The notes below the pieces were generated by a model. That model was not told the origin of the DNA. It ran no database searches and was given only the letters and a program-made list of their open reading frames with translations. This document shows, one piece after another, positions 10,522 to 54,097 of a DNA stretch of 57,413 nucleotides (position 1 is the first letter of the stretch; every line of letters starts with the position of its first letter). The stretch spans positions 1-57,413 of the forward strand of contig SHBP01000011.1 of assembly GCA_004211905.1 (NCBI GenBank), in the 5' to 3' direction. Origin of the DNA: SAR92 clade bacterium. Its GTDB lineage: Bacteria; Pseudomonadota; Gammaproteobacteria; Pseudomonadales; Porticoccaceae. Made by a program: the position numbers and the translations under genes.

Positions 10522-10546
10522 TAGACCTTAAATTTAGGCAGTGACT

Positions 10547-11809: not shown

Positions 11810-11827
11810 AAAAGAAAAGGTTATCGG

Positions 11828-13111: not shown

Positions 13112-13120
13112 GGCCAACCC

Positions 13121-13831
13121 ATGACTAGAGAGGTATTGGTCTTCTTGCACATGGACGATAAGAACTCAGGTTATATAGGCGACTATTTTCAGCGGCAAAA
13201 AATTCCTTTTCGAATTATTCGTAGTTATGCTGACGAGGCTGTCCCTCGATTAGATGGCAGCATAGCTGGTTTGGTCTTCATGGGCGGAGTAATGAGCGCC
13301 AATGATGACATTTCTTGGATAAAACAAGAAATTGATCTTATTCGCGCAGCGGTTCAAGCAAATATACCGGTCCTGGGACACTGCTTGGGTGGACAATTAA
13401 TCAGCAGGGCTTTGGGCTCGCCAGTGACAACCAATCCAGTAGGAGAGGTAGGTTGGCATCAATGTTTCAAACAGAACAATAGTCGAAGTGTTGAGTGGTT
13501 GGGTGATATCGACAACTCCTTCATGATGTTCCACTGGCACTATGAGACTTTCGCAATCCCCGACAAGGCTCAGCTTTTATTTTCCTCCGACCACTGCCAC
13601 AATCAAGCCTATAGCTATGGTGATAATGTTCTTGCTATGCAGGGCCACGTTGAGATGACCAAGCCGCTGTTGACTGACTGGATTACTCGGTGGCGAGATG
13701 ATTTGCAAGTGACGGCTCCTAGCATTCAGAATCATGAGCAGATCAAAACACCTCTGTCGGCCAATATAGTTGAGCTTAATCAGGTTGCTGAGCAACTCTA
13801 TAAGCGATGGTCATCAACACTATCTCTTTAA
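13121..13831 (+). CDS. Class I glutamine amidotransferase-like hydrolase
   Basis: The 236-residue single-domain protein has the class I GATase nucleophile elbow VLGHCLGGQLISRAL with Cys88 and the His-Glu pair in MQGHVEMT (His175, Glu177), so the Cys-His-Glu triad is complete. The N-terminal part (LDGSIAGLVFMGGVMSANDD) matches stand-alone GMP-synthase-like amidotransferases. It is not the PuuD/peptidase C26 subfamily by its motifs, but in this operon it could do the equivalent job of removing glutamate from a gamma-glutamyl intermediate. No synthetase partner domain is attached. Family certain, substrate inferred. Confidence 0.82.
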   Translation: MTREVLVFLHMDDKNSGYIGDYFQRQKIPFRIIRSYADEAVPRLDGSIAGLVFMGGVMSANDDISWIKQEIDLIRAAVQANIPVLGHCLGGQLISRALGSPVTTNPVGEVGWHQCFKQNNSRSVEWLGDIDNSFMMFHWHYETFAIPDKAQLLFSSDHCHNQAYSYGDNVLAMQGHVEMTKPLLTDWITRWRDDLQVTAPSIQNHEQIKTPLSANIVELNQVAEQLYKRWSSTLSL

Positions 13832-13849
13832 AACTCTAGGGTAAATACT

Positions 13850-15235
13850 GTGAAAACTGAAGGTTATCGAGACAAATACAATCAGCACCTGTTGCACCCC
13901 TGGGGAGATCTTGGAACCTTAGGTGAAGACGATCAGAGTTCAGTGATTACCCGAGGTGAGGGTATTTATATCTACGATGCTGAGGGCAATAGGCTTCTAG
14001 ATGGGCCGGCTGGTATGTGGTGTATGCAGACAGGCTATGGTCGCCAAGAGATTGCCGATGCTGTGTCCAATCAAATTATGGACTTGAGCTATGCTACATC
14101 GTTCACGGTGATCAACAACCGAGAGGTTGAGTTAGCGGAACGCATTGCCAAAGAGACCCCGGGGGATCTTAATCGTATCTACTTCACCACAGGGGGATCC
14201 ACTGCGGTAGATTCAGCATTGCGGCTGTGTCAATTAGCCAGCAATATAAACGGCCAGCCTCAACGCAAACATATTATCACTCGAGAAAAAGCCTATCACG
14301 GCAGTACATACTTAGCTGCTTCTATTACAGGTAAAGAGCGTGACAAAACTGCAATGGACATAAAGCGCGAAGGCATTCATTTTCTGTCAGCTCCGTGTCA
14401 TTTTTATCACCCACAATTTGACACCGAAGCGGCGTTTTGTGACTTCTTGGTAAATGAGTTAGAACAAAAAATTCTTGAAATTGGGCCGGACAATGTCATG
14501 TGCTTTATTGCCGAGCCCATTCTTGCTAGTGGTGGGGTCATTGTGCCGCCAGCAGATTATAACTATCGCTGCTGGGAGATGGTTAAAAAGTACAACATTA
14601 TTTACATTGCCGACGAGGTGGTCACTGCCTTTGGACGGCTTGGTCACTGGTTTGCCTCTGAGGAGGTGTTTGGTATCGTCCCTGACATCATTATTTTCGC
14701 CAAGGGTGTCACCTCAGGCTATATCCCCATGGGCGGTTATGCGGTCTCTGAATCTCTACTTGAGACCTTCACTGGTGATAATGCTGATGGCTGCCTCTAT
14801 TCTAATGGCTATACCTGGGGTGGTAGTCCCGTTGCTTGTGCCGCAGCTCTGGCTAGTTGGGATATTATTGAAAATGAAAATATATTGGATACTGTTCACC
14901 AAGTAGGGCCTTATTTTCAACAACAACTTCGCACCCTTCAGGATATTCCCTTAGTTGGTAATGTTCGCGGTGAAGGTCTTATGGCTGCGGTAGAGATGAC
15001 CATAGAGGGCCATAACGAAGATGATCTGTTGGCTAAAGACTACGCCATCGGTGAGATGGTTGATCAGCACTGTCAGCGGTTGGGGCTACTGGTGAGACCG
15101 TTCATTAATATCTGCATTATTTCACCGCCACTGATTATTACCAAACAGCAGGTCGATGAGTTAGTCTCTATACTGCGCAAAGGGTTAGAGCTTGCCATGA
15201 ATGATTTACGAGAGCAGGGTATCTGGGTCGATTAA
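13850..15235 (+). CDS. Class III (omega) aminotransferase, putrescine/beta-alanine--pyruvate type
   Basis: The 461-residue PLP enzyme has the expected motifs: FTTGGSTAVDSALRL, the catalytic-region Asp in IIYIADEVVTAFGRLG, and the Schiff-base lysine in IIFAKGVTSGYIPMGG (Lys285). It most resembles omega-amino acid--pyruvate aminotransferases such as SpuC, which transaminate polyamines. The start is GTG at 13850 with AGGG 8 bases upstream. It stands between the amidotransferase and SpeB genes and could deaminate a diamine or omega-amino acid produced by the preceding steps. Confidence 0.87.
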   Translation: MKTEGYRDKYNQHLLHPWGDLGTLGEDDQSSVITRGEGIYIYDAEGNRLLDGPAGMWCMQTGYGRQEIADAVSNQIMDLSYATSFTVINNREVELAERIAKETPGDLNRIYFTTGGSTAVDSALRLCQLASNINGQPQRKHIITREKAYHGSTYLAASITGKERDKTAMDIKREGIHFLSAPCHFYHPQFDTEAAFCDFLVNELEQKILEIGPDNVMCFIAEPILASGGVIVPPADYNYRCWEMVKKYNIIYIADEVVTAFGRLGHWFASEEVFGIVPDIIIFAKGVTSGYIPMGGYAVSESLLETFTGDNADGCLYSNGYTWGGSPVACAAALASWDIIENENILDTVHQVGPYFQQQLRTLQDIPLVGNVRGEGLMAAVEMTIEGHNEDDLLAKDYAIGEMVDQHCQRLGLLVRPFINICIISPPLIITKQQVDELVSILRKGLELAMNDLREQGIWVD

Positions 15236-34339: not shown

Positions 34340-35803
34340 TCAGTTGTTTAATTGTGATGTCTCTCCGTGCCCTGTGGCGTTCTGCATCTGGTTCGGCGCT
34401 GTCTTTACGGCTGCCATTCTCGCCCGATAGTCTTGCAGGTCGCGCTTGATAGTCGGCGCCAAGATGTAGAGACCGATGATATTGGGAATTGTGATGAGTA
34501 CCACGAGGCTGTCGATGAAATCGATGACCTGCTGTATATCAAGTACCGCCCCGGGGATCACCGCCACGCAGAAAAGTATACGATAAGAATACATCGACAA
34601 GCGTGAATAGCCGGCCAGAAATGCCCACACCCGGCTCATGTAGTAGGACCATGAGATAATCGTTGTGAAGGCGAATAGCAGCACGCAGATAGCGAGAATG
34701 TAGGGAAACCACCAGATAACGCTGCCGAATGCCGCCGACGTCATCTGGATGTCACTGACCCCTTCAAGTTGATAGGCCCCGGTAACTACGATCACCAGTG
34801 CGGTCATAGAGCTGACAACCATTGTGTCGAAAAATGGCTCAATGGTAGCAGCCAGGCCTTGTGACACAGGTTCGCGGGTCTTCGCTGCCGCGTGCACCAT
34901 CGTCGACACGCCCGTTCCCGCCTCGGTCGAGTATACTGCCCTGCGCATACCAATCACAAAGACCCCGATCACGCCACCAACGACGCCCTCTGGTGCGAAA
35001 GCTCCAGATACAATTGAGACCAGCGCACTGGGAATCGCATCGGCGTGCAGTGCTAGAATCGTAACTGCTGCGAGTAGGTAGATCACACACATCAGTGGCA
35101 CGACTCGGCTGGTAAGGCTCGCGATACTCCGGATACCACCGACAATCACCAGAGCTACGGCAAGCGCCAAGACGAGACCGAAGGTCCAGGGTGCGTCGAT
35201 ATTGGTCACCGCACTAAACTGGCTGTAGGCTTGGTTGACCTGCGTGAACACCAGAATCTGCGGAATTGCACAGACGGCGTAACTCAGGCCCAGGATCTTT
35301 CCGAGTAGAGGCCAGTTTTTTTCCTTCAAGCCTGCTTGTAGGTAATACATGGGCCCGCCGAACACAGAACCGTCTGCAAGGGTTGTACGATGTTTCACGG
35401 CCAGCATTACCTCGGCGAATTTCAGGGACATCGCGAAGAATGCAATAACAACCATCCAGAATGCCGCACCGGGCCCGCCGATCCCAATCGCGATGGCAAC
35501 CCCGGCGATGTTGCCGAGGCCAACCGTGCCGGCGAGTGCGGTGCTCAGGGCTTGAAACTGGCTGACCTCACCCGGTGCATCGGGGTCTGCATAGTGTCCC
35601 TTGAGAATGCGTATGGACATTGGGAAGCAGCGGATATTCACGAAGCCGAGGTAGATGGTAAAGAACAGCATCGGCACGGCCAGCCACACTACGGCCCACT
35701 CGATATCGACGCCCAGTACGCGTACTTGGCTGAAAGCAATGCTGGTAACCAGAGACGTTATGGCTCCGGCGATATCCTGAAAACTGGCGGCGAGTTCTTG
35801 CAT
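34340..35803 (-). CDS. Sodium:alanine symporter family (AGCS) amino-acid transporter
   Basis: This 487-residue protein has about 11 membrane helices. Family motifs include ALAGTVGLGNIAGVAIAIG (the AGCS signature with GLGNIAG), GPGAAFWMVVIAFF, SVFGGPMYYL and RAVYSTEAGTGVS. It would import a small amino acid or related zwitterion with sodium. It is the last gene of a leftward island operon with the CBU_0592-type protein, the MBL-fold hydrolase and the degenerate Rieske protein, and may import their substrate or a product such as a betaine-like amino acid. Its stop is 50 bases from the left att repeat. Confidence 0.88.
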   Translation of the reverse strand: MQELAASFQDIAGAITSLVTSIAFSQVRVLGVDIEWAVVWLAVPMLFFTIYLGFVNIRCFPMSIRILKGHYADPDAPGEVSQFQALSTALAGTVGLGNIAGVAIAIGIGGPGAAFWMVVIAFFAMSLKFAEVMLAVKHRTTLADGSVFGGPMYYLQAGLKEKNWPLLGKILGLSYAVCAIPQILVFTQVNQAYSQFSAVTNIDAPWTFGLVLALAVALVIVGGIRSIASLTSRVVPLMCVIYLLAAVTILALHADAIPSALVSIVSGAFAPEGVVGGVIGVFVIGMRRAVYSTEAGTGVSTMVHAAAKTREPVSQGLAATIEPFFDTMVVSSMTALVIVVTGAYQLEGVSDIQMTSAAFGSVIWWFPYILAICVLLFAFTTIISWSYYMSRVWAFLAGYSRLSMYSYRILFCVAVIPGAVLDIQQVIDFIDSLVVLITIPNIIGLYILAPTIKRDLQDYRARMAAVKTAPNQMQNATGHGETSQLNN

Positions 35804-35864: not shown

Positions 35865-36119
35865 TTATCTCCATAAACGTTCCCTCAGGAACTGAATTAG
35901 CCCGATGCAGCTGATCAAAAGCCAGAAAGCCTCGATAACAAAGGCGGACAGGTTAAAGTTTACGGTTAGCGAAAACAGGATTAGCCCAGCCCCCGTCGCG
36001 TTAAACAGCGAGTAACGAACATCTGTGATCTGCATCCGGCGCAGTTGAACCAGCAGGTAAGTCACTACGATCATCGCGGAGCCGACCATCCCAATGAAAT
36101 CATGCAAATGAACGTTCAT
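35865..36119 (-). CDS. Small inner-membrane protein, CBU_0592-like
   Basis: The 84-residue protein has three hydrophobic helices (about 8-26, 41-57 and 59-77) and the DVRYSLFNATGAGLILFSL motif typical of the small CBU_0592-type membrane proteins. No function is known to me. Its ATG overlaps the MBL-fold gene stop by four bases (ATGA type), so it is translationally coupled to it. Confidence 0.7.
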   Translation of the reverse strand: MNVHLHDFIGMVGSAMIVVTYLLVQLRRMQITDVRYSLFNATGAGLILFSLTVNFNLSAFVIEAFWLLISCIGLIQFLRERLWR

Positions 36120-36919
36120 CGTGGGAGCCGATCCACGGACGTCGTGCCCGCCTGCTCCCAGGTGCGCAGGTATTCGTCTGCGATCTCCCGGAGCCGCTCC
36201 CGGCCGAAGCTGTTCTCGTGTCCGCCGTGGACAACCCGCACGGGTAGTTCTCGTAGTCGCTGCATCGTGTGCACATAATCATCGAGGTTGGCCCCGGGAA
36301 AGTTCGTCAGTAGAGCCCCATCGTAAACCGCGTCACCTGAGAACAGGGTGCCCGTTGCCTTCTCCCACAGGCCGATGCTGCCCGGTGAGTGCCCGGGCAA
36401 GTGCATCACCTCGAAGTTACGGTTGCCGAGGTCTATCCTATCACCCTCCCTTACAGACCAAGTGCTGGGTGCTGGCTTTGTAGTGTGGGCCGCGATGTCG
36501 AAAGCCGCTTCGGGCACGGCGGTGATAAGTTCGTCCCGTTCCACGGGATAGCCCAGGTCGCTTAGTTCGTTCAGCTCTGCTTTACTGAAGTCGCAAGCGC
36601 GCAGCATCATCGGTGAAGAACCATCAGTCATGATCGCAGCCTCACTCTCGTGAACTACCCGTTCATCGAATTCGTGCATACCGCCGATATGATCGAAATG
36701 CGTGTGGGTCGCCACCGCCATCAGGCGTTTGACAAAAATATCCTGGGAGGCGTTGCGTAGACTCGCGATGCCAAGTCCCGTGTCAATCAACATATCCCGG
36801 TCCCTGCCACGAACGTGCCAAATGTTGCAGCGAATCAGGGGGTCAACGTAGGGTTCCCAGATTAGTGTGATGTCATCATCTATACGCCTGCGTTCGAACC
36901 AGCGGTTTTCGATTCTCAT
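36116..36919 (-). CDS. Metallo-beta-lactamase-fold hydrolase
   Basis: The 267-residue protein has the full metal-binding set: THTHFDHIGG (His72, His74, Asp76, His77), LPGHSPGSIGLW with the third His, FSGDAVYDG with the bridging Asp, and VVHGGHENSFG with the last His. The start is placed at ATG 36919, preceded by GGAGG. A longer frame reaching 37015 would overlap the upstream oxygenase gene. It probably hydrolyses an ester, thioester or lactone in the cytoplasm. It follows the degenerate Rieske gene by 29 bases and likely acts on the same compound. Confidence 0.85.
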   Translation of the reverse strand: MRIENRWFERRRIDDDITLIWEPYVDPLIRCNIWHVRGRDRDMLIDTGLGIASLRNASQDIFVKRLMAVATHTHFDHIGGMHEFDERVVHESEAAIMTDGSSPMMLRACDFSKAELNELSDLGYPVERDELITAVPEAAFDIAAHTTKPAPSTWSVREGDRIDLGNRNFEVMHLPGHSPGSIGLWEKATGTLFSGDAVYDGALLTNFPGANLDDYVHTMQRLRELPVRVVHGGHENSFGRERLREIADEYLRTWEQAGTTSVDRLPR

Positions 36920-36948: not shown

Positions 36949-38148
36949 CTATTCGGTGAGATCCGCTGCTACCCAGCGGTGGAATTGGTGGCGCATCCCG
37001 TCCCAGAAGGGGCAAAAGAAGCGCTCGTTATACACCGGCGACTGCGCTCCTTTCTGCACCGCCTCGGAGATTCGGTTATCTTCTGGTGCAACCTCGCCAT
37101 GGAAGCCATAAACCTTCTCGTGTTTCGCGGCATTCTCGGGTGTCACCGCCGCAGAGGGGAGCAGGTATAAGCGGCGATCGATGGTCCGGCCGACTCCGTC
37201 CGGTAGATTAATCCCTATCTCAATGTAGGTGGGCGCGATGGAAAAGCTCATCGCTGGGTAGAGGTCGACAAAGCCCGCTTGGTCCGGTAGCTGACCGTCT
37301 GCGCCCAGGTGCTGCTCTGCCGGGTCCACTGCACCGTAGGTTTCTGTGAAGTTACTGTAGTTGAAGCCAAGCCCGATCAAGTAGCCGTCGATAATCTCAC
37401 GGTAATTCTTGTCACCCTCCGGCGTCACCCGAGGGTGTGCCGGCGACTCGCTATAGGCTCGATGAACAAAGCTTTCGTGCAGTACATTGGGGCCGTCAAT
37501 GTCGAAGAAGATCTTCCAGTTGCAGTGCGTAACTGCTCGAGGAGCAATCGGCTGACCCGATCGGTCTAGGACGACGGCGACATCACTGAAATCATAGTCT
37601 GAAAATTGGCGCGCGATGGGGGCGATGTAATCCACGAAAGGCATCGGTTGCTTCGAGAGATTTATGAATACTGTGTGCAGGTAGATCTCGCAGTGCACCT
37701 CGACCAGATCCGTTGCTGGCACCCCGTCGGGGCGCTGGTCACGGTGCAGTGTGCCGTCCCAGAAAGGTGCCGCCTGCAATCTACCATCGAGGTCATACAC
37801 CCATCCGTGGTAGGGAGTGACGATTTCCCTGAGCTCAGAGGCGGGCTCGATGACAGCAAGGCAACCATCATAGGGAACCACATTGTGGAAGACGCGCAGC
37901 TGGCCGTCCAGGCCTCGGATTGCCAGCAGGGGCATGCCACAGAGTTCGAAAGGCAGTACCTGCCCTGGTTCTGCCACGTCAAAGTCGAACAGGGCTGAAA
38001 CCCAGTGCCTACTGAACACCCGCTCCCGCTCAGCTTCGAAAAAAGCAGTGCTGATATAGGATTCCGCCGGCAGCGAGCGAGCATTTTCTATCGGGGCGTT
38101 GATGGCTGCTAGTTGGTCGGGGCTTAGCACGGCTGGCTTTTCGCGCAT
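36949..38148 (-). CDS. Rieske-family oxygenase homologue with a degenerate iron-sulfur site
   Basis: This 399-residue protein has the layout of a Rieske oxygenase alpha subunit, including VFHNVVPYDG and EIVTPYHGWVYDLDGRL. The four [2Fe-2S] ligands expected as C-x-H and C-x-x-H are here Val91, Tyr93, Thr111 and His114, so only one remains. The mononuclear iron site is kept: His224 and His229 in NVLHESFVH, and a candidate Asp357 in VAPEDNRISEAV. The acidic residue that normally bridges the two metal centres, three before the first His, is Asn221. The frame is intact and the gene lies in an operon, so it is unlikely to be a plain pseudogene. It may be a non-Rieske iron enzyme or a lyase/hydrolase. 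Confidence 0.85.
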   Translation of the reverse strand: MREKPAVLSPDQLAAINAPIENARSLPAESYISTAFFEAERERVFSRHWVSALFDFDVAEPGQVLPFELCGMPLLAIRGLDGQLRVFHNVVPYDGCLAVIEPASELREIVTPYHGWVYDLDGRLQAAPFWDGTLHRDQRPDGVPATDLVEVHCEIYLHTVFINLSKQPMPFVDYIAPIARQFSDYDFSDVAVVLDRSGQPIAPRAVTHCNWKIFFDIDGPNVLHESFVHRAYSESPAHPRVTPEGDKNYREIIDGYLIGLGFNYSNFTETYGAVDPAEQHLGADGQLPDQAGFVDLYPAMSFSIAPTYIEIGINLPDGVGRTIDRRLYLLPSAAVTPENAAKHEKVYGFHGEVAPEDNRISEAVQKGAQSPVYNERFFCPFWDGMRHQFHRWVAADLTE

Positions 38149-38281: not shown

Positions 38282-38761
38282 TTAGCGGGGGATGCCAAGT
38301 TTACGCCCAAACTCCTGTGGTAGAGGGAATTGACGACCTCGGTCTAACTCCTGTTGGAAACGCGCCATTTGCTCGTTGCTAAAGCTTGTGCTGCGGCGCG
38401 TTTTTAGATCGACGTATATACCCAGACATTCGTTCGTAGCTGCCAGATACCCCTCTTCGGCGTGGTACATACAGTGAATATAGTGCACTCGCTTGTGATC
38501 ATAGTCAGCCAGTTGACTGGTTATCCGGAGCCTGTCTCCCTTCATTACTTCCCGGATATAATCGATGTTGGCGCCAAGTGTAAAAGTTGTTTTGCTCAGT
38601 GCTTGTTTGTGAGCCAGCCCGATATTTATAAAATCGTAAAACTTCTCAGTGGCGATTTGATCAAAGGCGACGAGATAGTAACCCATGTTCATGTGTCCGT
38701 TGTAATCGAGCCACTCAGTTTTCACGTCGGTGTATGTAGTTAAGAGTTCTGTATCCAGCAT
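38282..38761 (-). CDS. Hotdog-fold acyl-CoA thioesterase, betainyl-CoA thioesterase-like
   Basis: This 159-residue hotdog protein has the 4HBT-type motif VKTEWLDYNGHMNMGYYLVAFDQ split around residue 20, and FTLGANIDYIREVMKGDRLRI. Homologues of this form accompany carnitine dehydrogenase and the 3-dehydrocarnitine-cleaving BKACE enzyme, where they hydrolyse betainyl-CoA (CdhB). Both partner types occur in this island at 44070 and 46489, so the same role is likely though not proven. It stands 133 bases upstream of the degenerate Rieske gene on the same strand; that gap shows no clear element. Confidence 0.8.
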   Translation of the reverse strand: MLDTELLTTYTDVKTEWLDYNGHMNMGYYLVAFDQIATEKFYDFINIGLAHKQALSKTTFTLGANIDYIREVMKGDRLRITSQLADYDHKRVHYIHCMYHAEEGYLAATNECLGIYVDLKTRRSTSFSNEQMARFQQELDRGRQFPLPQEFGRKLGIPR

Positions 38762-38901: not shown

Positions 38902-39798
38902 TTATTGTTGCCACAGGGCATAGAGCCAGCTTTCGAAATCTCGTCCCGCAGCGCTTCGGTATTCCTCTTCGGGATGTGTCACGTAGTAGTATTCGGGTTG
39001 AAATGTGGTTTCCGTATGTATAACGGTTAGACGCTCGGATGCTAGATCTTTCTCAATAAAGCGTTTAGCCATTAGCCCAATTCCCAGACCGCGACGGATG
39101 CAGTCGAGGACATTGTGATAACCGGTGCCCAAGTAAAGATTGCGTTCGGCTTTGACATTTTCCACATTGGTCAGACGGAACCAATCACGCCACTCTGTTC
39201 CATCATCTGCGTGAATCAAGGTGTAGTTCGTAAGTTTTTCCGCTGCCATCTTCGATTGCAGGTTACCTCCAAAAAGTTTGGCAGAGCCGACCGGAACCAG
39301 TGGTGCCTTCTCCAGACGCTTTACTCTCTCTTCGCTGACCGGTGGTTTGCCGTAACTAATGCACAGGTCGATGTCGCTGGGAATCTCTTGCGGATACACG
39401 GGTAGTGAGATCAGCTGGAACGAATACCCTGGGTAGTGGCGTAAGAAGTCACCAAGGTTGGGTATTAGCCAGTTGCTTGCTAGGCCTGACGAGCAGGCGA
39501 TACGCAGATCGACGGCCTCGTTGTCGACTGTGACACCACCTATGGCTCTTACCAGGTCATCTAGCGTTGAGCTGATATCCTGCAGTAACCTGCCACCTAA
39601 CGGCGTAAGAGAGAGACCAGTATTCTTACGTTCCAATAAAGTAACATCTAGTAGCGATTCGAGATTTCGGACTTGCTGGCTGACGGCGCTGTGTGTGACG
39701 CAGAGCTCTTCCGCAGCGCGCCGCATGTGCTGATGGCGGCCCACCGCCTCAAAGGTTCTAAGAGCGTTCAGGGGTAGTTTTTGTTTTGATCTGATCAT
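38902..39798 (-). CDS. LysR-family transcriptional regulator, GcvA-like
   Basis: The 298-residue regulator has the N-terminal winged helix-turn-helix (LNALRTFEAVGRHQHMRRAA, then HSAVSQQVRNLE). The effector-binding domain starts around residue 93 (VDLRIACSSGLASNWLIPNL), as in GcvA-type members. It is divergent from the TonB receptor gene at 39942 and is the only DNA-binding regulator in the island, so it probably controls both island operons. The effector is unknown. The divergent spacer 39799-39941 is AT-rich without a palindrome I can defend. Confidence 0.88.
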   Translation of the reverse strand: MIRSKQKLPLNALRTFEAVGRHQHMRRAAEELCVTHSAVSQQVRNLESLLDVTLLERKNTGLSLTPLGGRLLQDISSTLDDLVRAIGGVTVDNEAVDLRIACSSGLASNWLIPNLGDFLRHYPGYSFQLISLPVYPQEIPSDIDLCISYGKPPVSEERVKRLEKAPLVPVGSAKLFGGNLQSKMAAEKLTNYTLIHADDGTEWRDWFRLTNVENVKAERNLYLGTGYHNVLDCIRRGLGIGLMAKRFIEKDLASERLTVIHTETTFQPEYYYVTHPEEEYRSAAGRDFESWLYALWQQ

Positions 39799-42459: not shown

Positions 42460-44073
42460 TTGGTAAGTGAGCGGAAAGAAAGAAAAGTACCACTTCAGCC
42501 GCAACAGGTGATTAAGCGCCTGTCTGCGCTTTCAAAGCAGGGTAAAGCAGGGGATGTGGCCCATCTCCTGCCGAAGCTTTCGGAAGACTATGCGGAAAAC
42601 GCCGAGGTTCAGTATGCGATCAGCGAACTGTTGCTGCTGTCAAAACGCGTCACAGAAGCGCTCGGTTATGCAGCTAAGGCCCGGTCACTTGCGCCACAGT
42701 TTATCAAATATATTATTCATGAAGCGCTTTGCTGCCTCGGTCTGAGTCAGTTTGAGCGTGCTACCGCAATCTTAGAAAGTGCAGAACCACTGATTGCTGA
42801 GAAGCCAGTGCATGCGGCCATGTTTGCAAGCCTGCTGGTTAGAACAGGGCGTCATGACCGCGCGGTTCATTTCTATCAGGAAGCGATTCGGCAAGAGCCT
42901 GATAATGCTCGGCATCAATTCAGCCTGGCGGCTACGCTGCGATTTTTAGGGCGCCTTGAGGAGGCGGAGTGTGCATGCGATGCGGCCATTGAGATCGACC
43001 CCGAAGAATACGAAGCCTATCTTATACGTTCTGATTTACGTAACCAAACTCAGGCCAGCAATCATGTTGCAGAATTGGAACAAGCACTGGTCGAGCAAAA
43101 TGCGCCTTATATGGGCGAAGCCATGCTCTGCTTTGCACTGGCCAAAGAGAGCGAAGATATCGGGGATTCAAAAAAGTCCTTTCGTTACTTGAAACAGGGT
43201 GCAGACCTCCGTCGCAAGCACCTGTCTTATGATGTCGGGCGTGACGTGGAAATTATTGAAGAGCTGATTTTGCAGTTCTCTGCGGAGAACATTCAGGCCA
43301 GAGGGGGTAGCGGCAGTGCTGATCCGCTGCCAGTGTTTGTCATTGGTATGCCTCGCACCGGCACTACTTTGTTGGAGCGCATGCTCGCCAGTCATTCACA
43401 GATACATTCGGCTGGTGAATTACCGAACTTCTCGCAGCAAGTAGCTGCGATGGGGCGGCGCGCCAATCCAGAGCAGGCTCTCGCGCCCCGTGACCTTGTT
43501 GCTGCTTCAGTGAATTTTGATATGGCAGAGTTGGGTGCCAACTATCTCGATAGCGTACGTGAGCTGACGGGATCTTCTGCAAGAATGATCGACAAATTGC
43601 CGTTCAATTATCTGAATGCGGCCCTTATACACCTAAGTCTACCGGCCTCTACGATCATCCATGTGTGCCGTGACCCAATGGATACTTGTTATGCAGTCTA
43701 CAAGACGCTGTTTCAGCGGGCGTATCCTTTCTCTTATGATCTTGACGATCTGGCACGCTACTTCATTGCTTATTGGAAGTTGATGCAACACTGGCGGCAG
43801 GCGATGCCAGGTCGAATGATCGAGCTTCAGTACGAAGCGCTGGTCGATAACCCTATGGAGGAGGGGCGACGTATGATAGAAGCTTGCAATCTTAATTGGG
43901 AAACTTCGATGCAGGAGTTTCACCGTAATCCCACAGCGTCGATGACCGCTAGCGCGAGCCAAGTGCGTCGTCCAGTTTATCGTTCTTCGGTAGGTAAGTG
44001 GCGACGTTACGAGATGGAGTTGCGTCCGTTGTATGAGCGGCTAGAGGAAGCCGGTATCCCGGTGAAGTCATGA
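42460..44073 (+). CDS. TPR-domain sulfotransferase
   Basis: The N-terminal half (about 10-250 of 537 residues) consists of helical TPR repeats such as EVQYAISELLLLSKRVTEAL and ARHQFSLAATLRFLGRLEEA. The C-terminal half is a sulfotransferase with the PAPS-binding P-loop VIGMPRTGTTLLERML (298-303 core) and the 3'-phosphate motif IIHVCRDPMDTCYAV. It would transfer sulfate from PAPS to a hydroxyl or amine. The start is uncertain: TTG 42460 has GGAGGG 8 bases upstream, and TTG 42418 is an in-frame alternative. It overlaps the BKACE gene by 4 bases. An exported sulfatase is encoded in the same island at 52796. Confidence 0.85.
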   Translation: MVSERKERKVPLQPQQVIKRLSALSKQGKAGDVAHLLPKLSEDYAENAEVQYAISELLLLSKRVTEALGYAAKARSLAPQFIKYIIHEALCCLGLSQFERATAILESAEPLIAEKPVHAAMFASLLVRTGRHDRAVHFYQEAIRQEPDNARHQFSLAATLRFLGRLEEAECACDAAIEIDPEEYEAYLIRSDLRNQTQASNHVAELEQALVEQNAPYMGEAMLCFALAKESEDIGDSKKSFRYLKQGADLRRKHLSYDVGRDVEIIEELILQFSAENIQARGGSGSADPLPVFVIGMPRTGTTLLERMLASHSQIHSAGELPNFSQQVAAMGRRANPEQALAPRDLVAASVNFDMAELGANYLDSVRELTGSSARMIDKLPFNYLNAALIHLSLPASTIIHVCRDPMDTCYAVYKTLFQRAYPFSYDLDDLARYFIAYWKLMQHWRQAMPGRMIELQYEALVDNPMEEGRRMIEACNLNWETSMQEFHRNPTASMTASASQVRRPVYRSSVGKWRRYEMELRPLYERLEEAGIPVKS

Positions 44074-44957
44074 ATCGAGAAGTTATTATTACCTGTGCGC
44101 TAACCGGTGCCGGCGACACCGCGAGCAAGAGTCCTCACGTGCCCGTGACGCCCAAGGATATAGCCGCTGATGCCATTAATGCCGCCGCTGCTGGTGCTTC
44201 GGTAGTACACATTCATGTGCGTGACCCCAGAACCGGTGCTCCGTCGAGGGACCCATCTCTGTTTGAAGAGGTGCATAACCGTATTCGAGAGCAGAACCAA
44301 GAACTTATGCTCAACTACACTGGGGGTATGGGGGGGGATCTCTGGTTCGATCTTGGAGCGTCCGCAACCCTTGCGGCGCACTCCGATTTTGTTGGTGCGG
44401 CAGAGCGGGTTCAACACGTTACAATGCTGCGCCCTGATATTGGTAGCATGGATTGTGGCTCTCTAAATTTTGGAGAAATGGTTTATGCAACTACCCCTAA
44501 TCTGTTGCGCAGTATCGCTGCGCTTTATCGTGACCGTGGTGTTAAAGCTGAGCTTGAGGTATTTGAGCTAGGCCACATTGAGATTGCGAAAATGCTGATC
44601 GAGGAGGGGCAGATCCCGAAGCCTCCACTCTTTCAACTATGTCTCGGTATAAGTCACGGTGCACCTGCTACTCCGGCTGCAATGATGGCGATGCGGAATG
44701 CTCTACCGCAGGATGCAGTGTGGGCGGCTTTTGGTGTTGGAAGAATGCAGTTTCCCATGTTGGCACAGGCCGTGTTGCTGGGTGGACACGTACGTGTGGG
44801 GCTGGAAGATAATCTTTATCTGGAGCGCGGAGTATTGGCCAGCAATGAGAGTATGGTTCAGAAAGCGGTACGAATCATTGAGGATCTTGGTGCAAAAGTG
44901 GCGACGGTACAACGCGCACGGCAGCTTCTTCAACTGGAGGAAGTACCCTCATCATGA
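44070..44957 (+). CDS. BKACE (DUF849) beta-keto acid cleavage enzyme, 3-dehydrocarnitine-cleaving type
   Basis: The 295-residue zinc TIM-barrel has the family opening VIITCALTGAGDTASKSPHV, the metal site VVHIHVRDP (His47, His49) and VGLEDNLYLERG (Glu246). The N-terminus strongly resembles the enzymes that condense 3-dehydrocarnitine with acetyl-CoA to give betainyl-CoA and acetoacetate (CdhC). The carnitine-dehydrogenase-like gene two genes downstream and the thioesterase at 38282 complete that pathway. The usual HCH of the metal motif is HIH here. It overlaps both neighbours by ATGA, so it is tightly coupled. The exact beta-keto acid could differ from dehydrocarnitine. Confidence 0.87.
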   Translation: MNREVIITCALTGAGDTASKSPHVPVTPKDIAADAINAAAAGASVVHIHVRDPRTGAPSRDPSLFEEVHNRIREQNQELMLNYTGGMGGDLWFDLGASATLAAHSDFVGAAERVQHVTMLRPDIGSMDCGSLNFGEMVYATTPNLLRSIAALYRDRGVKAELEVFELGHIEIAKMLIEEGQIPKPPLFQLCLGISHGAPATPAAMMAMRNALPQDAVWAAFGVGRMQFPMLAQAVLLGGHVRVGLEDNLYLERGVLASNESMVQKAVRIIEDLGAKVATVQRARQLLQLEEVPSS

Positions 44958-46492
44958 CCGGAATACAAACCAACATATTTATTGCTAGCTTCAAGCATGA
45001 GACCAATACGTATTCGGCTGTGCCGACACCTGTCAGCCGCTTCCATGTTGAGGGGCGGCTTCTCACCGGTGCTGAGGCGATAGCATATTTTGCCGGTACC
45101 GACTCGGTAGTAGGGGGGATGCTCGACACGGTCACTGGTAATGGAGCAACCGTCACCTTGCCGATTGCTGCCAATGGTTGGCCGAGTGGTTATGTCCATG
45201 ATAATGCTTTCGAGACTATCGCGGGTTTAATCTGCGACGCCCTGCAGGGTGCGCGTTGGGATGGAATCCTACTGGACTTGCATGGCGCTATGGTGACTGA
45301 GTCGTACGCGGATGGTGAGGCGGAGCTTCTGAGGAGGATTCGAGATATCGCTCCTTCAGTTCCTCTGGGTTTGGCGCTGGATATGCATGCCAATGTCTCG
45401 CCAGAAATGGTAGGAGCTGTCGATGTGCTCTGTGGCTATCAGACTTACCCCCATCTTGACGAGCGTGAAACAGGTGTCAGAACTGCCAGACTGTTGCTGG
45501 CAACAATAGAGGGGACTATCTCGCCGGCGCTGGCCTGGGGAGCTGTTCCTATGTTGCCCCACGTTATGGCCCAGAGTAGTTACGATGAACCCAATCATAG
45601 CTTGCAGAATCGATGTGTCGAATTAGCTGGAGTTGATGCTCTTGATTGCAGCCTGTTTACGGGTTTTCCCCATGCCGATGTTCCTAACGCAGGGCTGAGT
45701 GCTGTTGTCATGACAGATGCCAACCCGTGTCGAGCAGCAATGAGGCGAGATGAGTTGCTGGAGGAGGCCTGGGCGCAACGCAAGGCATTCGAATTTTCAG
45801 TCGAGCCACTGGCCGACTCGGTGCGTCGTGCCAAAACACTCGCCAATTCGGGGTCGGTCAGCGGCCCGATCTTCCTCCTAGATCATTACGATAATGCCGC
45901 CTCTGGAGGATCGATGGCCGAAATAGCAGTTCTGGCAGAGCTTATCAGGCAGGGGCTACGCAACGTGGTGTTTTTTGCGCTTTGGGCTCCCGAAGCAGTA
46001 GCTGTTGCACATCGGGCCGGTCTGGGGCAGCGGGTAACTATCAGCCTTGCCAGCCCGTCGTCTATGTCCTCTGAGATGTTGGAGTTTGAAGGGGAAGTTG
46101 CCCACCTATCTGACGGGCTGGTTAAAGCCACGCACAGTGACCACACGGGGCTCTTGCTTGAACTGGGCGATAGCGCCTTATTGAAGGGGGATGGAATTGA
46201 TTTGGTATTGGTTTCGTTACCTATGGAGCCTTCGGATATGGCGTGTTTTGAACTGTTTGGCGTTGATCCGCGTGAGCGACAGTTTGTTGTCCTTAAGAGT
46301 CGCGTGCACTGGCGCGCCGCGTTCGAATCGATGGTTGGGGCAGTGATCCCCTGTGCTGGGGTCGGCGCTTGCACGTCTGATTATTCTGAACTCGAATTCA
46401 CTTCGGTACGCCGCCCGATATTCCCTCTCGAGAGGGATGCGAAGTTTACGCCGGTGCTGTTGGAAAAGAATTTTTCTGGAGCCGCGTTATGA
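44954..46492 (+). CDS. M81-family metallopeptidase (MlrC-like)
   Basis: The 512-residue protein has the M81 signature layout: FIASFKHETNTYSAVPTPVS at the N-terminus, ILLDLHGAMVTESYADGEAE, LALDMHANVSPEM and YQTYPHLDERETG carrying probable zinc ligands. The C-terminal domain has LLDHYDNAASGGSMAE. MlrC, the namesake, cleaves linear microcystin products, but most M81 members have unknown substrates. It is embedded between BKACE and the carnitine-dehydrogenase-like gene with ATGA overlaps on both sides, so it acts in the same pathway, perhaps releasing the hydroxy acid from an amide. No signal peptide is seen; it is cytoplasmic. Confidence 0.87.
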   Translation: MTGIQTNIFIASFKHETNTYSAVPTPVSRFHVEGRLLTGAEAIAYFAGTDSVVGGMLDTVTGNGATVTLPIAANGWPSGYVHDNAFETIAGLICDALQGARWDGILLDLHGAMVTESYADGEAELLRRIRDIAPSVPLGLALDMHANVSPEMVGAVDVLCGYQTYPHLDERETGVRTARLLLATIEGTISPALAWGAVPMLPHVMAQSSYDEPNHSLQNRCVELAGVDALDCSLFTGFPHADVPNAGLSAVVMTDANPCRAAMRRDELLEEAWAQRKAFEFSVEPLADSVRRAKTLANSGSVSGPIFLLDHYDNAASGGSMAEIAVLAELIRQGLRNVVFFALWAPEAVAVAHRAGLGQRVTISLASPSSMSSEMLEFEGEVAHLSDGLVKATHSDHTGLLLELGDSALLKGDGIDLVLVSLPMEPSDMACFELFGVDPRERQFVVLKSRVHWRAAFESMVGAVIPCAGVGACTSDYSELEFTSVRRPIFPLERDAKFTPVLLEKNFSGAAL

Positions 46493-47532
46493 GCACACGA
46501 TCCATATTTCCCAACCTGAACGAGGTTCAGCATGTAGCCGTTATCGGCACAGGGCTGATCGGTGCCGGGTGGGTCGCACAATTCTTATTGTACGGCTTGA
46601 AAACTAGTGTATGGGACCCCGCCCCAGATTTTGAGGATCGATTGATGGGGCAGCTGCAAGATGTATTCTCTAGGCTGCACGTTGACCAGGATCACCAAGC
46701 GCGCTGCTTAAATGCATTGAACTTCGCGGAAAATTTGGAGGCCGCTGCAGCGTCCGCTCAGTTTATCCAAGAAAATGGCCCAGAAAATTTGCAGGTCAAG
46801 CGCGGTATCCTTGAGGAGCTGGCGCGAGCGGTTCCTCCTGATGTGGTGATCGCTTCTTCTGCGTCAGGGTTGCCTATGAGTGAACTGCAACAAGGCTGTT
46901 TGCACCCAGAGCGCTTGGTTATTGGTCATCCTTTCAATCCGGTATATATGATTCCATTGGTCGAGATAGTGGCAGGGAGTCTAACGGGAGCGGAGACGGT
47001 GACTTGGGTAGAGGGATTTTATCGGAGCCTGGGTAAAGCACCAGTGGTATGTGACCGAGAGAATGTCGGGTTTATTGCCAATCGTTTACAGGAAGCATTG
47101 TTTCGAGAAGCGTTGCATATGGTCAAAGCAGGGGACGCCACGGTTGGCCAGATCGATGATGTAGTGCGTTATGGTCTCGGGGTACGCTGGGCATTCATGG
47201 GCCCATTTCTATCCTATCACCTTGCCGGGGGGAAAGAGGGGCTGAGCGGCTTTTTCGAGCGGTTCGGTGAAACGATCGGCGAACCCTATTCTCGTTTACA
47301 GGCACCGGAACTGTCTCAGGAGTTGATTGATTCGGTTCTGGATCAAGGGGAGTTGGCCTTCGGTGGTCAGAGTATTGAGGATGCCGAGCAGTGGCGCGAC
47401 GACTGTCTTAGTCAAATACTGGCTCTATCTAACCGGGAGGGTGGGATGTATCGTGTGCAGCGCCAGCAGCCGGGAGAGCAAGTTTGCTGTACTAAGCCAC
47501 CATCGGATGGGATTTCTGATAATGGCTGCTGA
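46489..47532 (+). CDS. L-carnitine dehydrogenase-like 3-hydroxyacyl dehydrogenase
   Basis: This 347-residue NAD-dependent enzyme has the dinucleotide motif VAVIGTGLIGAGWVAQFLL (about 17-35), the substrate/NAD loop FIQENGPENLQVKRGIL, and the catalytic GHPFNPVYMIPLVE (His147, Asn150). The C-terminal helical domain contains YGLGVRWAFMGPFLSYHLAGG, which matches carnitine 3-dehydrogenases better than fatty-acid hydroxyacyl-CoA dehydrogenases. It would oxidise L-carnitine or a similar 3-hydroxy acid to the 3-keto acid that BKACE cleaves. In some carnitine degraders this protein is fused to the thioesterase; here the two are separate. It overlaps the M81 gene by 4 bases. Confidence 0.87.
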   Translation: MSTRSIFPNLNEVQHVAVIGTGLIGAGWVAQFLLYGLKTSVWDPAPDFEDRLMGQLQDVFSRLHVDQDHQARCLNALNFAENLEAAAASAQFIQENGPENLQVKRGILEELARAVPPDVVIASSASGLPMSELQQGCLHPERLVIGHPFNPVYMIPLVEIVAGSLTGAETVTWVEGFYRSLGKAPVVCDRENVGFIANRLQEALFREALHMVKAGDATVGQIDDVVRYGLGVRWAFMGPFLSYHLAGGKEGLSGFFERFGETIGEPYSRLQAPELSQELIDSVLDQGELAFGGQSIEDAEQWRDDCLSQILALSNREGGMYRVQRQQPGEQVCCTKPPSDGISDNGC

Positions 47533-50400: not shown

Positions 50401-50435
50401 GGAGACAGCAAAAATTGGTAAATTTGGAGAGAGTT

Positions 50436-51023
50436 ATGGAACCGAAAGGTATGCTACTTGATGCAGGCGACAGTGTGCTCGCGGTTATCGATGTGCAGGA
50501 CAAGTTTTTGGCGCGGTTGGAAGGCGTGGATGCGGAGCGTGTTGTTACGCACTGTGAATGGCTGATGAAAGTAGCTAACTGGCTATCAATTCCGATCCTG
50601 GTCACCGCTGAGGAAATCTCGGTTATGGGGCATTCAACACAAAAGCTCCTGGACTGTATGCCCAAAGGGGCCACTGAGCACGACAAGTTGGTGTTTGGGC
50701 TGGCTGGTCAGGAGGATATTTTGGACGCTCTGGAATCCACAGAGCGAAAAACCGTAGTGTTAACTGGGCTTGAAACAGATGTGTGCGTAGCTCAATCAGC
50801 TCTTGGGTTGATTGAGAAAGGATATAGGGTTGCTGTCGTTTCGGATGCCAGCGCCTCGCCGCAACGAGGGCATGAACATGGTCTGCAGCGCATGCGTGAT
50901 GCTGGTGTGACTGTGATAAGTACCAAAGGTTTGTTTTTTGAGTGGGTACTTGACTTGCAACGCTGTCATGATTTTTTTCGCAACAGTGGCATTGGTGTTC
51001 CGGAGGGTCTGTACATTGGCTGA
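50436..51023 (+). CDS. Isochorismatase-family hydrolase
   Basis: This 195-residue cysteine hydrolase has SVLAVIDVQDKFL with the catalytic Asp, a conserved Lys in the central region, and VLTGLETDVCVAQSALGL with the catalytic Cys. Members hydrolyse small amides (nicotinamide, carbamoyl compounds) or isochorismate. No siderophore genes accompany it, so an amidase role in the pathway is likelier. ATG 50436 is preferred because GGAGAG lies just upstream; an in-frame TTG at 50415 would add seven residues. Its last codons overlap the amidohydrolase start. Confidence 0.85.
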   Translation: MEPKGMLLDAGDSVLAVIDVQDKFLARLEGVDAERVVTHCEWLMKVANWLSIPILVTAEEISVMGHSTQKLLDCMPKGATEHDKLVFGLAGQEDILDALESTERKTVVLTGLETDVCVAQSALGLIEKGYRVAVVSDASASPQRGHEHGLQRMRDAGVTVISTKGLFFEWVLDLQRCHDFFRNSGIGVPEGLYIG

Positions 51024-52569
51024 GCGAACGTCGAGCTCTTTCCTATCCGCACTTTCCTTGATCTGGAGGGGAACTAAAGCTGCGGTTTTGTGGGTGATGC
51101 TGCTTGTATCAGCGGCGCCACTATGGGCTGCTGCCCCCCCTATTACTACGCTTATTTCTGATGTTACTGTCATCGATGGTCTTGGGGAGGCGCCACTTTT
51201 ACATCGCTACGTTTTGTTGCAAGAGGGGCGGATTGCCAGTATTGATACTAAGCCGCCTATTGTAGGCGCTGACGTAGTTGTTATAGATGGGCGCGGCTTT
51301 TATCTTCTGCCAGGCTTTTGGGATATGCATGCCCATACTTTTGCGGATACTACCGCAATGGAGTTGTATCTTGCAGCGGGTGTGACCGGATTACGTGATA
51401 TGGGGTGCCCCGAGAACTGTACGACTAAGCTGGGCGAGGTGCGTCAAGCCTACCTTAGCGGTAGCGGTGTATACCCCCGGCTGGTTTTCTCGGGACCCAT
51501 GATTGATGGCGATTCCCCTTATGATGACTACCCTTCTCATCGTCAAATAAATCTTCAAACACTGCCAGACGCTCTCGCCGTATTGCAAAAGTTACAAGTT
51601 GATTTTATTAAGGTGCGCGATTTTCTGAGTAGGGATGAGTACATGGCTTTAGTGGGTGCTGGTGCGGCGATGCAGTTGCAGCTCGCGGGACACGTCCCGA
51701 TCTCCCTTCCCGTCAATGAGGCTGTCCGTTCAGGGCTGAGCACCGTAGAGCATGAAGGTAGCCTATTCGGTGGTCTGCTACTCGCTTGCTCCTCTGATGA
51801 ATCTAAACTGCGAGACGAATTGCGTAATATGATGCGAAAGGCTACAGCAAGCGGAGATGTAGAAACGCTTTACGCTGAAGCCCTCAATGCCGGCTTTATC
51901 GATCGCTTGCTGAATTCATACGATCCAAACAAAGCCGATGCCTTGGTGCAGGCTTTCTTCGACAGTGGCGCGGCGCTGGTACCAACTTTGGTGATGCAGG
52001 AGCCTATGCTTCATTCTGCAGACCCCGAATTTAACGGGCGTCGAAAAGTGGAAGACGAAGAGTTTATCGATGCCCCGGATACACTTATTTCAGGCTGGAG
52101 GGAAACCGCCGGTGAAGAGGTGCTTGGCCAACCTTTTTCTGACTTGGATCGTGCGGCCATGGCCAGGCAGTACAATCAGGTGGTTAAGTTGATTGGTAAA
52201 ATGCATCGGGCCGGCGTGCCTATTCTGGCTGGAACTGATGCTTCTTTTCCAGATGGAACGCCCTGGGTCTGGCCGGGCTATAGCCTACATGATGAACTCG
52301 AATTGTTAGTCTCTGCAGGCTTGTCACCGAGCGAGGCAATTGCGTCGGCGACTGGAGCTGCTGCTGCACAAATGGGTTTGTCTGATACGGGAGTGATTGC
52401 CGCTGGAAACCGTGCGGACTTGATCTTGCTGGGGCGCAATCCCTTAGAGGATATCCGCAACACTCGCGTGATTAAACGTGTGTGGGTGAATGGCCAGTCT
52501 GTGGATCGCGATGCGTTACTTGATCGTGTGAAGAGACGTGCTGAAGACCATGAGAATTACTGGGAGTAA
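51016..52569 (+). CDS. Exported amidohydrolase-superfamily metal hydrolase
   Basis: The 517-residue protein begins with a likely signal peptide (AAVLWVMLLVSAAPLWAAA). The amidohydrolase barrel follows: FWDMHAHTFADT with the first HxH, QLAGHVPISLPV and STVEHEGS with later His ligands, and LAGTDASFPDG with the conserved Asp; the C-terminal GNRADLILLGRNPLEDI closes the beta-sandwich. It resembles imidazolonepropionase/prolidase-like secreted amidohydrolases. The start at TTG 51016 is supported by GGAGGG 8 bases upstream and by overlap with the isochorismatase stop. A longer frame from 50938 lies inside that gene. Confidence 0.83.
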   Translation: MAERTSSSFLSALSLIWRGTKAAVLWVMLLVSAAPLWAAAPPITTLISDVTVIDGLGEAPLLHRYVLLQEGRIASIDTKPPIVGADVVVIDGRGFYLLPGFWDMHAHTFADTTAMELYLAAGVTGLRDMGCPENCTTKLGEVRQAYLSGSGVYPRLVFSGPMIDGDSPYDDYPSHRQINLQTLPDALAVLQKLQVDFIKVRDFLSRDEYMALVGAGAAMQLQLAGHVPISLPVNEAVRSGLSTVEHEGSLFGGLLLACSSDESKLRDELRNMMRKATASGDVETLYAEALNAGFIDRLLNSYDPNKADALVQAFFDSGAALVPTLVMQEPMLHSADPEFNGRRKVEDEEFIDAPDTLISGWRETAGEEVLGQPFSDLDRAAMARQYNQVVKLIGKMHRAGVPILAGTDASFPDGTPWVWPGYSLHDELELLVSAGLSPSEAIASATGAAAAQMGLSDTGVIAAGNRADLILLGRNPLEDIRNTRVIKRVWVNGQSVDRDALLDRVKRRAEDHENYWE

Positions 52570-52795
52570 GTCCTATGCTGAACAGTTGGCCTTTTCAAGT
52601 TAGATTCTTTTTGAGTAATCATAAAGAGAGCATGGGGAAATTCTGCTTTTTGCTTGCAGCGTAATACTGCGACCAGAATTTTTTCGAGCTGAGTCCAATT
52701 GAAATTAAAGAGTGTGGGCAAAGGGGCATTTAAAGGGTGGGTCTCTGTGGTCCTAAAACCTATGATCATAAATTGTTACGGGGATTAACTTGTCT

Positions 52796-54097
52796 ATGAA
52801 GTCGTTCTATGCTGTTCTCATGGCTCTATACAGTGCGTTCTGCTTGGCTGACGCACCGTCCGAAAAACCCAATATCGTGTTGATTGTTGCCGATCATATG
52901 GGGGCGAGTGATATCGGCGTGTATGGTGCAAAAGATATCGAGACACCTTCTCTGGATGCACTGGCAGCACAGGGTGCTCGCTATACAAATTACTACGCTG
53001 CGGCGCCAACCTGTGGCCCTTCAAGAGCGGCGATGATGACGGGGAAGTATCCCGCGCGTATCGGTTTCGAAGACAATATCGATCTCGGTACTGGGCTGAG
53101 TTCCAGTATCCCGACATTACCCAAGTTGTTGAAGCGGAAGGGGTATAAAAGTGGACTCTTCGGCAAATGGCACCTCGGCGATTCCGAAGACATGCATCCT
53201 CTCGCCCACGGTTTTGACGAGTACTTCGGCTATAACAATTGGAGCATTAACTATTACACGCATCGCGACGATAGTGGCGAAGAGTCTCTCACGCATAATC
53301 GGAGCATTATAGAGCGGGATGGTTATCTCACGGATATCCTAACAGATGAAAGCATTCGATTCATGGAACAGAACCGCGATGACCCTTTCTTTCTGTACCT
53401 GTCCTACAATACTGCACTGCCGCCTTACCTAGGCCCTGATTTGCCGCCGGAGAAGTGGGATGCCGAATTCAATATCGACACAGCCACCCGCGCTGACTAC
53501 ATAGCGATGGTGGAGGCGATGGATGCAGGTATCGGCAGGTTAATAAAGGCACTCAGCGATCTTGGTCTTGCCGAAGATACACTGGTCCTGTTCACATATG
53601 ACCACAATGGTCGCCACTTGGCGCGAAATGCTCCCTTTTCTGGTGGGTTTGCCACCTTGAACGAAGGGGGAGTTCGAGTGCCGTTGATCATACGATGGCC
53701 TGGCAAGCTGTCGGCAGGAAAGACGCAACTGAGGTCTGCTATCGGTATGGATATTACAGCGACAGTTCTCAACGCTGCTGGTGTTGAATCAGAATCGCTG
53801 AATCTCGACGGCCGAGATCTCCTGCAAGACCAGAAGCCTAATGAACAGAGAGCCTTTTTCTGGCGCATAAAACTCGGTGATTTTGGCCAGGCAGCAGTTC
53901 GTCGCGATAACTGGAAGTTGCTTGTTCACCGGTTCGTAACATTTAGTCGTCCCACCGTTTATCTTTACGATCTTGATTCAGACCCGGGAGAATCGATTGA
54001 TCTTTATCACCAGCACCAGGGGCTAGCCGACCAAATGTACCGTGAATTAATCGAGTGGGAGGCGTCAGTCGCCCAGTCCGATCCGCCAGGATCGTAG
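52796..54097 (+). CDS. Exported type I sulfatase
   Basis: The 433-residue protein has a signal peptide (YAVLMALYSAFCLA) and the sulfatase consensus CGPSRAAMMTG, where Cys73 would be converted to formylglycine. Other sites are present: IVLIVADHMG at the N-terminal metal strand, LFGKWHLGD with the catalytic Lys/His, and LFTYDHNGRH as the second metal strand. The first metal pair is Asp33-His34 rather than the usual Asp-Asp. The start at ATG 52796 is preferred over TTG 52790. A 226-base spacer (52570-52795), in which I see no feature, separates it from the amidohydrolase, so it may have its own promoter. It would remove sulfate in the periplasm. Confidence 0.9.
   Translation: MKSFYAVLMALYSAFCLADAPSEKPNIVLIVADHMGASDIGVYGAKDIETPSLDALAAQGARYTNYYAAAPTCGPSRAAMMTGKYPARIGFEDNIDLGTGLSSSIPTLPKLLKRKGYKSGLFGKWHLGDSEDMHPLAHGFDEYFGYNNWSINYYTHRDDSGEESLTHNRSIIERDGYLTDILTDESIRFMEQNRDDPFFLYLSYNTALPPYLGPDLPPEKWDAEFNIDTATRADYIAMVEAMDAGIGRLIKALSDLGLAEDTLVLFTYDHNGRHLARNAPFSGGFATLNEGGVRVPLIIRWPGKLSAGKTQLRSAIGMDITATVLNAAGVESESLNLDGRDLLQDQKPNEQRAFFWRIKLGDFGQAAVRRDNWKLLVHRFVTFSRPTVYLYDLDSDPGESIDLYHQHQGLADQMYRELIEWEASVAQSDPPGS

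Follow-up and report, generated by a model that had tools for sequence, protein, structure and literature searches.

Rieske-oxygenase-like proteins without the full set of cluster ligands or the bridging acid: a small conserved clade that keeps the residues of the mononuclear metal site

What can a Rieske-type oxygenase still do when most of the residues that hold its iron-sulfur cluster, and the acid that relays electrons to its mononuclear iron, have been replaced? The question is raised by P0001, a clusterless Rieske-oxygenase-like gene of 399 amino acids located at 36949..38148, on the minus strand, of a 57,413-nucleotide stretch of DNA from a SAR92 clade bacterium (contig SHBP01000011.1; the whole stretch is referred to below as the window), which was characterised using Pfam, AlphaFold2 and Foldseek. 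The frame is intact, with an ATG start, 399 codons and zero internal stops, and its product exceeds the Pfam cut-offs for both the Rieske domain (PF00355, 26.7 bits vs 20.3) and the catalytic domain (PF00848, 58 bits vs 24.9). At the four Rieske ligand positions it carries V91, Y93, T111 and H114, only the last being the standard residue. In the alignment, cluster loop 1 survives as VPYDGC (residues 91-96, 37861..37878, minus strand; standard C-x-H) and cluster loop 2 as TPYHGW (residues 111-116, 37801..37818, minus strand; standard C-P-Y-H-G-W). In the aligned segment NVLHESFVH (residues 221-229, 37462..37488, minus strand), the position of the bridging acid, three residues before the first His ligand, is taken by N221, followed by the ligands H224 and H229 and by E225, which is specific to the clade described below; together with the aligned D357 (37078..37080, minus strand) as third ligand, the predicted 2-His-1-Asp metal site is kept as far as its residues are concerned. 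The window also holds an intact homologue, P0002, running from 10541 (GTG) or 10547 (ATG) to 11809 on the plus strand, with C-x-H, C-P-Y-H, acid and triad. A first-pass annotation, made from the letters of the stretch, had given the coordinates of the P0001 gene, though not its strand, and the eight residue numbers, as well as the intact frame and the homologue at 10547, and all of them proved correct. As judged from its sequence, P0001 is homologous to the alpha subunits of Rieske oxygenases, yet it is not classed as a functioning Rieske oxygenase, because two defining features, the cluster ligands and the bridging acid, were looked for and are absent.

The window's gene is not alone. Six full-length clusterless proteins were found in five genomes, the window's own and five others in four further genomes, with identities going down to 33%. 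In a scan of species genomes with P0001, in which the best 80 of 169 relatives were kept, the near relatives were L006 (81% identical), L007 (71%) and L008 (42%), the next ones falling to 28%; in addition, L029 is a contig-edge fragment, 100% identical over 37 residues and 91.7% identical in DNA over 2,677 bases. A profile search of the four genomes that carry these loci provided L121, a second clusterless copy in the genome of L008 (G850), about 17 kb from L008 itself, and a family-level search provided L136 in genome G1309, these two being the only new members to come from the wider searches.

These six were aligned with 125 outgroup rows (131 rows in total; one outgroup gene appears twice, leaving 124 genes). 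All eight standard residues are present in 123/125 outgroup rows (122/124 genes), and the two exceptions are seemingly technical, with an X in place of the first Cys in L047 and an Asp shifted by one residue from the aligned acid column in L016. The full set of cluster ligands, by contrast, is found in no member of the clade. Four of the six have V at position 91, one has T and one has C (L008, which alone keeps the first Cys), and at position 111 five have T and one has A; Y93, the retained H114 and N221 at the bridging position are common to all six. The H224/H229/D357 triad is complete in every clade member and in 125/125 outgroup rows. Even the sister ordinary oxygenases (L086, L087 and kin; L009, L010), which are some 25-30% identical to P0001, differ from the clade in having C-x-H, C-P-Y-H (C-R-Y-H in L096), acid and triad all present. 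The coordinated loss of the electron-transfer parts with the triad kept, which had been noted for P0001 alone, is thus a property of the clade.

Furthermore, the clade shares residues of its own. Fourteen private invariants (the same in all clade members and in <=5% of other rows) were identified: P92, Y93, D94, C96, W130, N221, L223, E225, S235, P239, T270, Y271, R359 and M385. Seven of them fall in positions 92-96 and 221-225, ten residues in the two metal regions, from which it follows that specific replacements accompanied the loss; the hypergeometric p of ~1.3e-9 for this clustering applies to stretches picked after seeing the data and is uncorrected for kinship. P92, Y93, D94 and C96, invariant in the clade, occur in 2, 0, 0 and 0 of the 125 outgroup rows, respectively. 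Such an invariance, together with that of H114, would be expected if the old cluster loops bound a different metal or cofactor through some of Y93, D94, C96 and H114, making a two-metal enzyme. This is a long shot, for C96 may be structural: in the Rieske protein of the cytochrome bc1 complex, a Cys at similar spacing forms a disulfide and no bond to the cluster.

A 91-row tree (L006 was entered twice, which leaves 90 distinct rows) unites the six clusterless proteins in one clade with branch support 100/100 and a stem length of 1.21, nested in a group (100/99) with 22 ordinary oxygenase rows; the placement of L009 and L010 as nearest sisters is weak (89/46). Within the clade, the window's protein groups with L006 and L007 (100/99) and L121 with L136 (100/100), L008 lying at an open fork between them; it is only the neighbour gene of L008 that places it with the window. 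Among clade pairs, the nonsynonymous divergence (dN) ranges from 0.13 to 0.74 (ten pairs), while the synonymous divergence (dS) by the NG86 method is out of range in nine of the ten; the sole measurable pair, L006-L007, gives a rough dN/dS of 0.083 at a dS of 2.8. The clusterless clade is therefore monophyletic and under purifying selection, having lost the cluster set and the acid and kept the triad residues. The possibility that P0001 is a decaying pseudogene or an assembly artefact, which the disappearance of the relay acid and of most of the cluster ligands might bring to mind, was rejected as scarcely credible, given that the six frames, from five genomes, are all intact, share the same replacements and are under purifying selection. 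The first-pass annotation had proposed a new activity and not random decay, with close homologues keeping the four ligands as the mark of a local pseudogene. None of the six has that set, and decay is refuted by conservation and selection; the new activity may hold, with a hetero-oligomer, discussed below, as a live rival.

The Rieske oxygenase fold is predicted to be kept as well. Modelling, which had been put forward earlier as a check, gave a confident fold: the AlphaFold2 monomer model of P0001 (86 rows) has a predicted local distance difference test (pLDDT) score of 93.7 and a predicted template modelling (pTM) score of 0.92, is confident over its entire length and averages 96 to 98 per block across residues 81-120, where the old cluster loops are found. 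The best solved structure in Foldseek was that of the carnitine monooxygenase CntA (6zgp_G, E 9.2e-28, TM score 0.71 on the query and 0.78 on the target, 19% identity), which is also the best solved-structure match by sequence (E 1.4e-18), and the best non-CntA enzyme was stachydrine demethylase. CntA and the clade have an identical His-His-Asp triad but, unlike the clade, CntA has Cys86, His88, Cys106, His109 and the bridging Glu205 (PMC7948474, excerpts). In this enzyme, electrons cross between chains via E205, leaving the cluster of one and reaching the iron of its neighbour, and no E205 mutant made was active, E205D and E205Q being reported as inactive (excerpts of the same paper); consequently, N221 argues against a Rieske-fed catalysis in the clade.

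The electrons could also come from a separate Rieske protein. In the NdmC/NdmD/NdmE system of caffeine N-demethylation, the iron site of NdmC, a catalytic oxygenase chain with no Rieske cluster of its own, is served by the Rieske domain of NdmD (PMC10380055, excerpts). In favour of a similar supply are a gene of the glutathione S-transferase (GST) family, that of NdmE, which directly precedes the clusterless gene in L008 (L127:5908-6576), and the intact oxygenase adjoining L121 and L136. It is, however, improbable for the clade, where the relay acid is replaced in all members. In addition, G000, the window's genome (90.9% complete), has only four Rieske-domain proteins at E<=1e-8, with open frames of 387-423 codons, and at that threshold neither a small Rieske ferredoxin nor an NdmD-size Rieske protein, nor the NdmD-like reductase with a Rieske domain that goes with the NdmC type; small Rieske frames do occur in the other four clade genomes, with 111 to 139 codons. 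NdmC itself, a short chain, has no Rieske domain. The clade may be compared with it by description, as a putative catalytic chain in which the cluster-ligand set is missing, yet a Rieske domain with replaced ligands is still recognised here and the relay acid is gone. NdmC and the two-chain algal chlorophyllide a oxygenase, considered below, are the nearest precedents for the clade.

A different rival arises from the loci of L121 (G850) and L136 (G1309). In both, the clusterless gene shares four bases (ATGA) with the stop region of an intact Rieske oxygenase gene. This coupled neighbour is standard at all sites and 53% identical between the two genomes (match E 6.2e-132 in G1309). Upstream, both loci have a second Rieske oxygenase (with a VanA_C domain in G850, and a relative 54% identical in G1309) and a divergent AraC-type regulator (by Pfam in G850, 40% identical in G1309), so that two Rieske-motif oxygenases, one of them VanA-like, are followed by the clusterless one (L126:6270-9633; L137:5165-9463). 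The overlap hints at a mixed complex and makes a hetero-oligomer a live rival, in which the clusterless protein would be a non-electron-carrying partner subunit (alpha') of the intact oxygenase within a mixed trimer or hexamer, stabilising or shaping the active site of its neighbour. Such a role, the main rival explanation, is in keeping with the conservation of the intact partner, with the second oxygenase upstream and with the retention of H114. It is nevertheless the less likely account of the clade. In G000, G848 and G849 no match to the coupled partner is comparable (best E 1.5e-28, 1.7e-45 and 7.0e-30); no Rieske motif was found in the reading frames scanned around L006, L007 and L008, and in the window the nearest Rieske-motif gene to P0001 is P0002, 25 kb off. 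Moreover, the complete metal triad persists in members as little as 33% identical, which is not expected of a purely structural chain. Two chains also make up the chlorophyllide a oxygenase of Micromonas (MpCAO), to which this pairing might be likened; here, however, the coupled neighbour of L121 and L136 has every site in place and is not complementary. A recent duplication of the coupled neighbour was also considered as the origin of the clusterless gene, and rejected because the two rows of this neighbour sit far off in the tree. As further observations on these loci, the G850 operon lies near genes that by eye resemble protocatechuate 4,5-cleavage genes (L129, L126), and in G1309 the clusterless gene is followed downstream by one for a protein of 275 aa (L137:9586-10410) that has no Pfam match at E<=1e-5.

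The most likely reading, to which a probability of roughly 0.5 is given, is that the clusterless clade is a mononuclear-metal enzyme that would work without Rieske electrons. According to this proposal, which is built on residue patterns, the triad would bind a single metal, most simply Fe(II), receiving no electrons from any Rieske centre; either the substrate would supply the electrons for activating O2, or the metal would serve a non-redox chemistry such as hydration, hydrolysis or isomerisation. The clade-specific N221 and E225 would reshape the metal site. In ordinary oxygenases, whose alpha subunits form a head-to-tail alpha3 trimer, the His of loop 2 touches the acid of the next chain, and the retained H114 may still keep this old contact between adjacent chains via N221. 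In the window, the product would be handed to the adjacent metallo-beta-lactamase-fold hydrolase, within a catabolic operon. The fuller version, a one-time conversion to a stand-alone mononuclear metal enzyme with no need of a cluster, relay acid or reductase, in which N221 and E225 would be new to the active site and the old cluster loops rebuilt as P-Y-D-G-C and P-[YF]-H, is more tentative and falls somewhat short of even odds.

Several points weigh against a mononuclear-metal enzyme. In two of the six cases the clusterless gene shares bases with an intact oxygenase gene, an arrangement that a subunit role would explain equally well. However confident the AlphaFold model, it tells neither whether a metal is bound nor which one. 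The clade so far comprises only six full-length sequences in five genomes, three of them labelled Gammaproteobacteria or Pseudomonadales. Finally, the lack of a reductase nearby is uninformative: no reductase with plant-ferredoxin and ferredoxin-NADP reductase (FNR) motifs was found in the window or the seven clade stretches, but the same motif scan found one at only 1/49 intact-oxygenase loci, and after this control the missing reductase was dropped as evidence.

The hydrolase invoked above lies at 36116..36919 on the minus strand; its Pfam match is of the metallo-beta-lactamase fold, its H-x-H-x-D-H metal motif is retained intact (HTHFDH), and its ATG, with GGAGG in front, comes 29 bases past the preceding stop. 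The model of this hydrolase (pLDDT 56.7) was not used for a fold search. It follows the clusterless gene directly in the window, as its relatives do in L006, L007 and L029; in L008 (stretch L127) the relative sits some 3 kb upstream, and none is listed in the L121 and L136 stretches. The first-pass annotation had asked whether homologues form a conserved clade with this neighbour; the clade is firm (100/100), and the neighbour occurs at 4/6 member loci, window included, plus the L029 fragment. Around this pair, the window contains, on the minus strand, a downstream transporter of the sodium:alanine symporter family (34340..35803), whose relatives occupy the equivalent position in L006 and L029, and, upstream, a 4HBT_2 thioesterase (38282..38761), similar to the C-terminal part of a fused carnitine 3-dehydrogenase model (83 bits vs a cut-off of 592), and a LysR regulator (38902..39798, Pfam). 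On the plus strand, isochorismatase-domain and amidohydrolase genes (50415..52569) have relatives that immediately precede the clusterless gene in L007, and a sulfatase (52790..54097) has relatives near the clusterless gene in L006 and L007, being 15 kb away in the window. A gene of the DSBA family, HCCA-isomerase-like by eye, lies two reading frames upstream in L006 (L006:6281-6880). The presence of GST-family and DSBA-family genes near two clusterless genes might indicate a glutathione link, an echo of the GST-like NdmE.

Other genes in the window bring carnitine and betaines to mind. Positions 44070-47532 contain BKACE, MlrC/M81-type and L-carnitine-dehydrogenase-like genes (304 bits vs a cut-off of 414), which, together with the thioesterase at 38282-38761, we take to be a carnitine-type, CdhA/B/C-like set around the clusterless gene. 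In 10541-15235, the intact oxygenase is GbcA-like (270 bits vs a cut-off of 670), and by eye it is followed by a flavin-dependent (FAD) amine oxidase, a class-I amidotransferase and an aminotransferase, another amine/betaine catabolic set. The carnitine-dehydrogenase-like, BKACE and thioesterase genes were suggestive of P0001 being a CntA-type carnitine oxygenase. This candidate was rejected, however, since the aromatic residue of group Va is missing: group Va oxygenases, which act on quaternary ammonium compounds and include CntA, have an aromatic at CntA position 203, two before the acid, and group Vb an Asn (PMC7948474, excerpts), while at the equivalent position, two residues before N221, the clade has Gly in 5/6 members and Cys in 1/6.

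The distribution of the clade was surveyed in several draws, of which those at order, class and phylum level are samples in which members may be missed. The order-level draw (390 genomes) gave 17 matches at 1e-30, the own one and 16 intact; the class-level draw (369 genomes) gave the own and 8 intact at 1e-45, and the family-level set (112 genomes) the own and 7 intact at the same threshold; in the phylum-level draw (398 genomes), the own genome alone matched at 1e-75. The order of G850 (244 genomes) yielded G850 and two intact proteins. Three further families were covered with 120 genomes each, the rows listed for those of G849 and G850 being mostly from the same genomes. Among plasmids, 177 records match, the ten matches listed being 27-29% identical. 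The record titles of L007 and L008, RHO1_bin_72 and MH-Pat-SR, presumably denote sponge-associated metagenomes. No description of this clade was found in the open-licence literature by phrase searches, which are a weak instrument, and within the terms searched the accessible portion of a 2025 review (PMC12445004) names neither NdmC nor a clusterless member.

As regards the family as a whole, Rieske oxygenases are defined by the coupling between a [2Fe-2S] cluster and a mononuclear iron, and the clade has removed precisely that coupling while keeping the residues of the iron site. A practical warning follows, in that Pfam calls, with both domains above their cut-offs, do not imply Rieske chemistry. 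If the L121/L136 type were a mixed complex, it would represent an oxygenase built from one electron-carrying and one non-carrying chain. Further, the clade lets one ask what the iron site does alone, and which electrons the fold needs.
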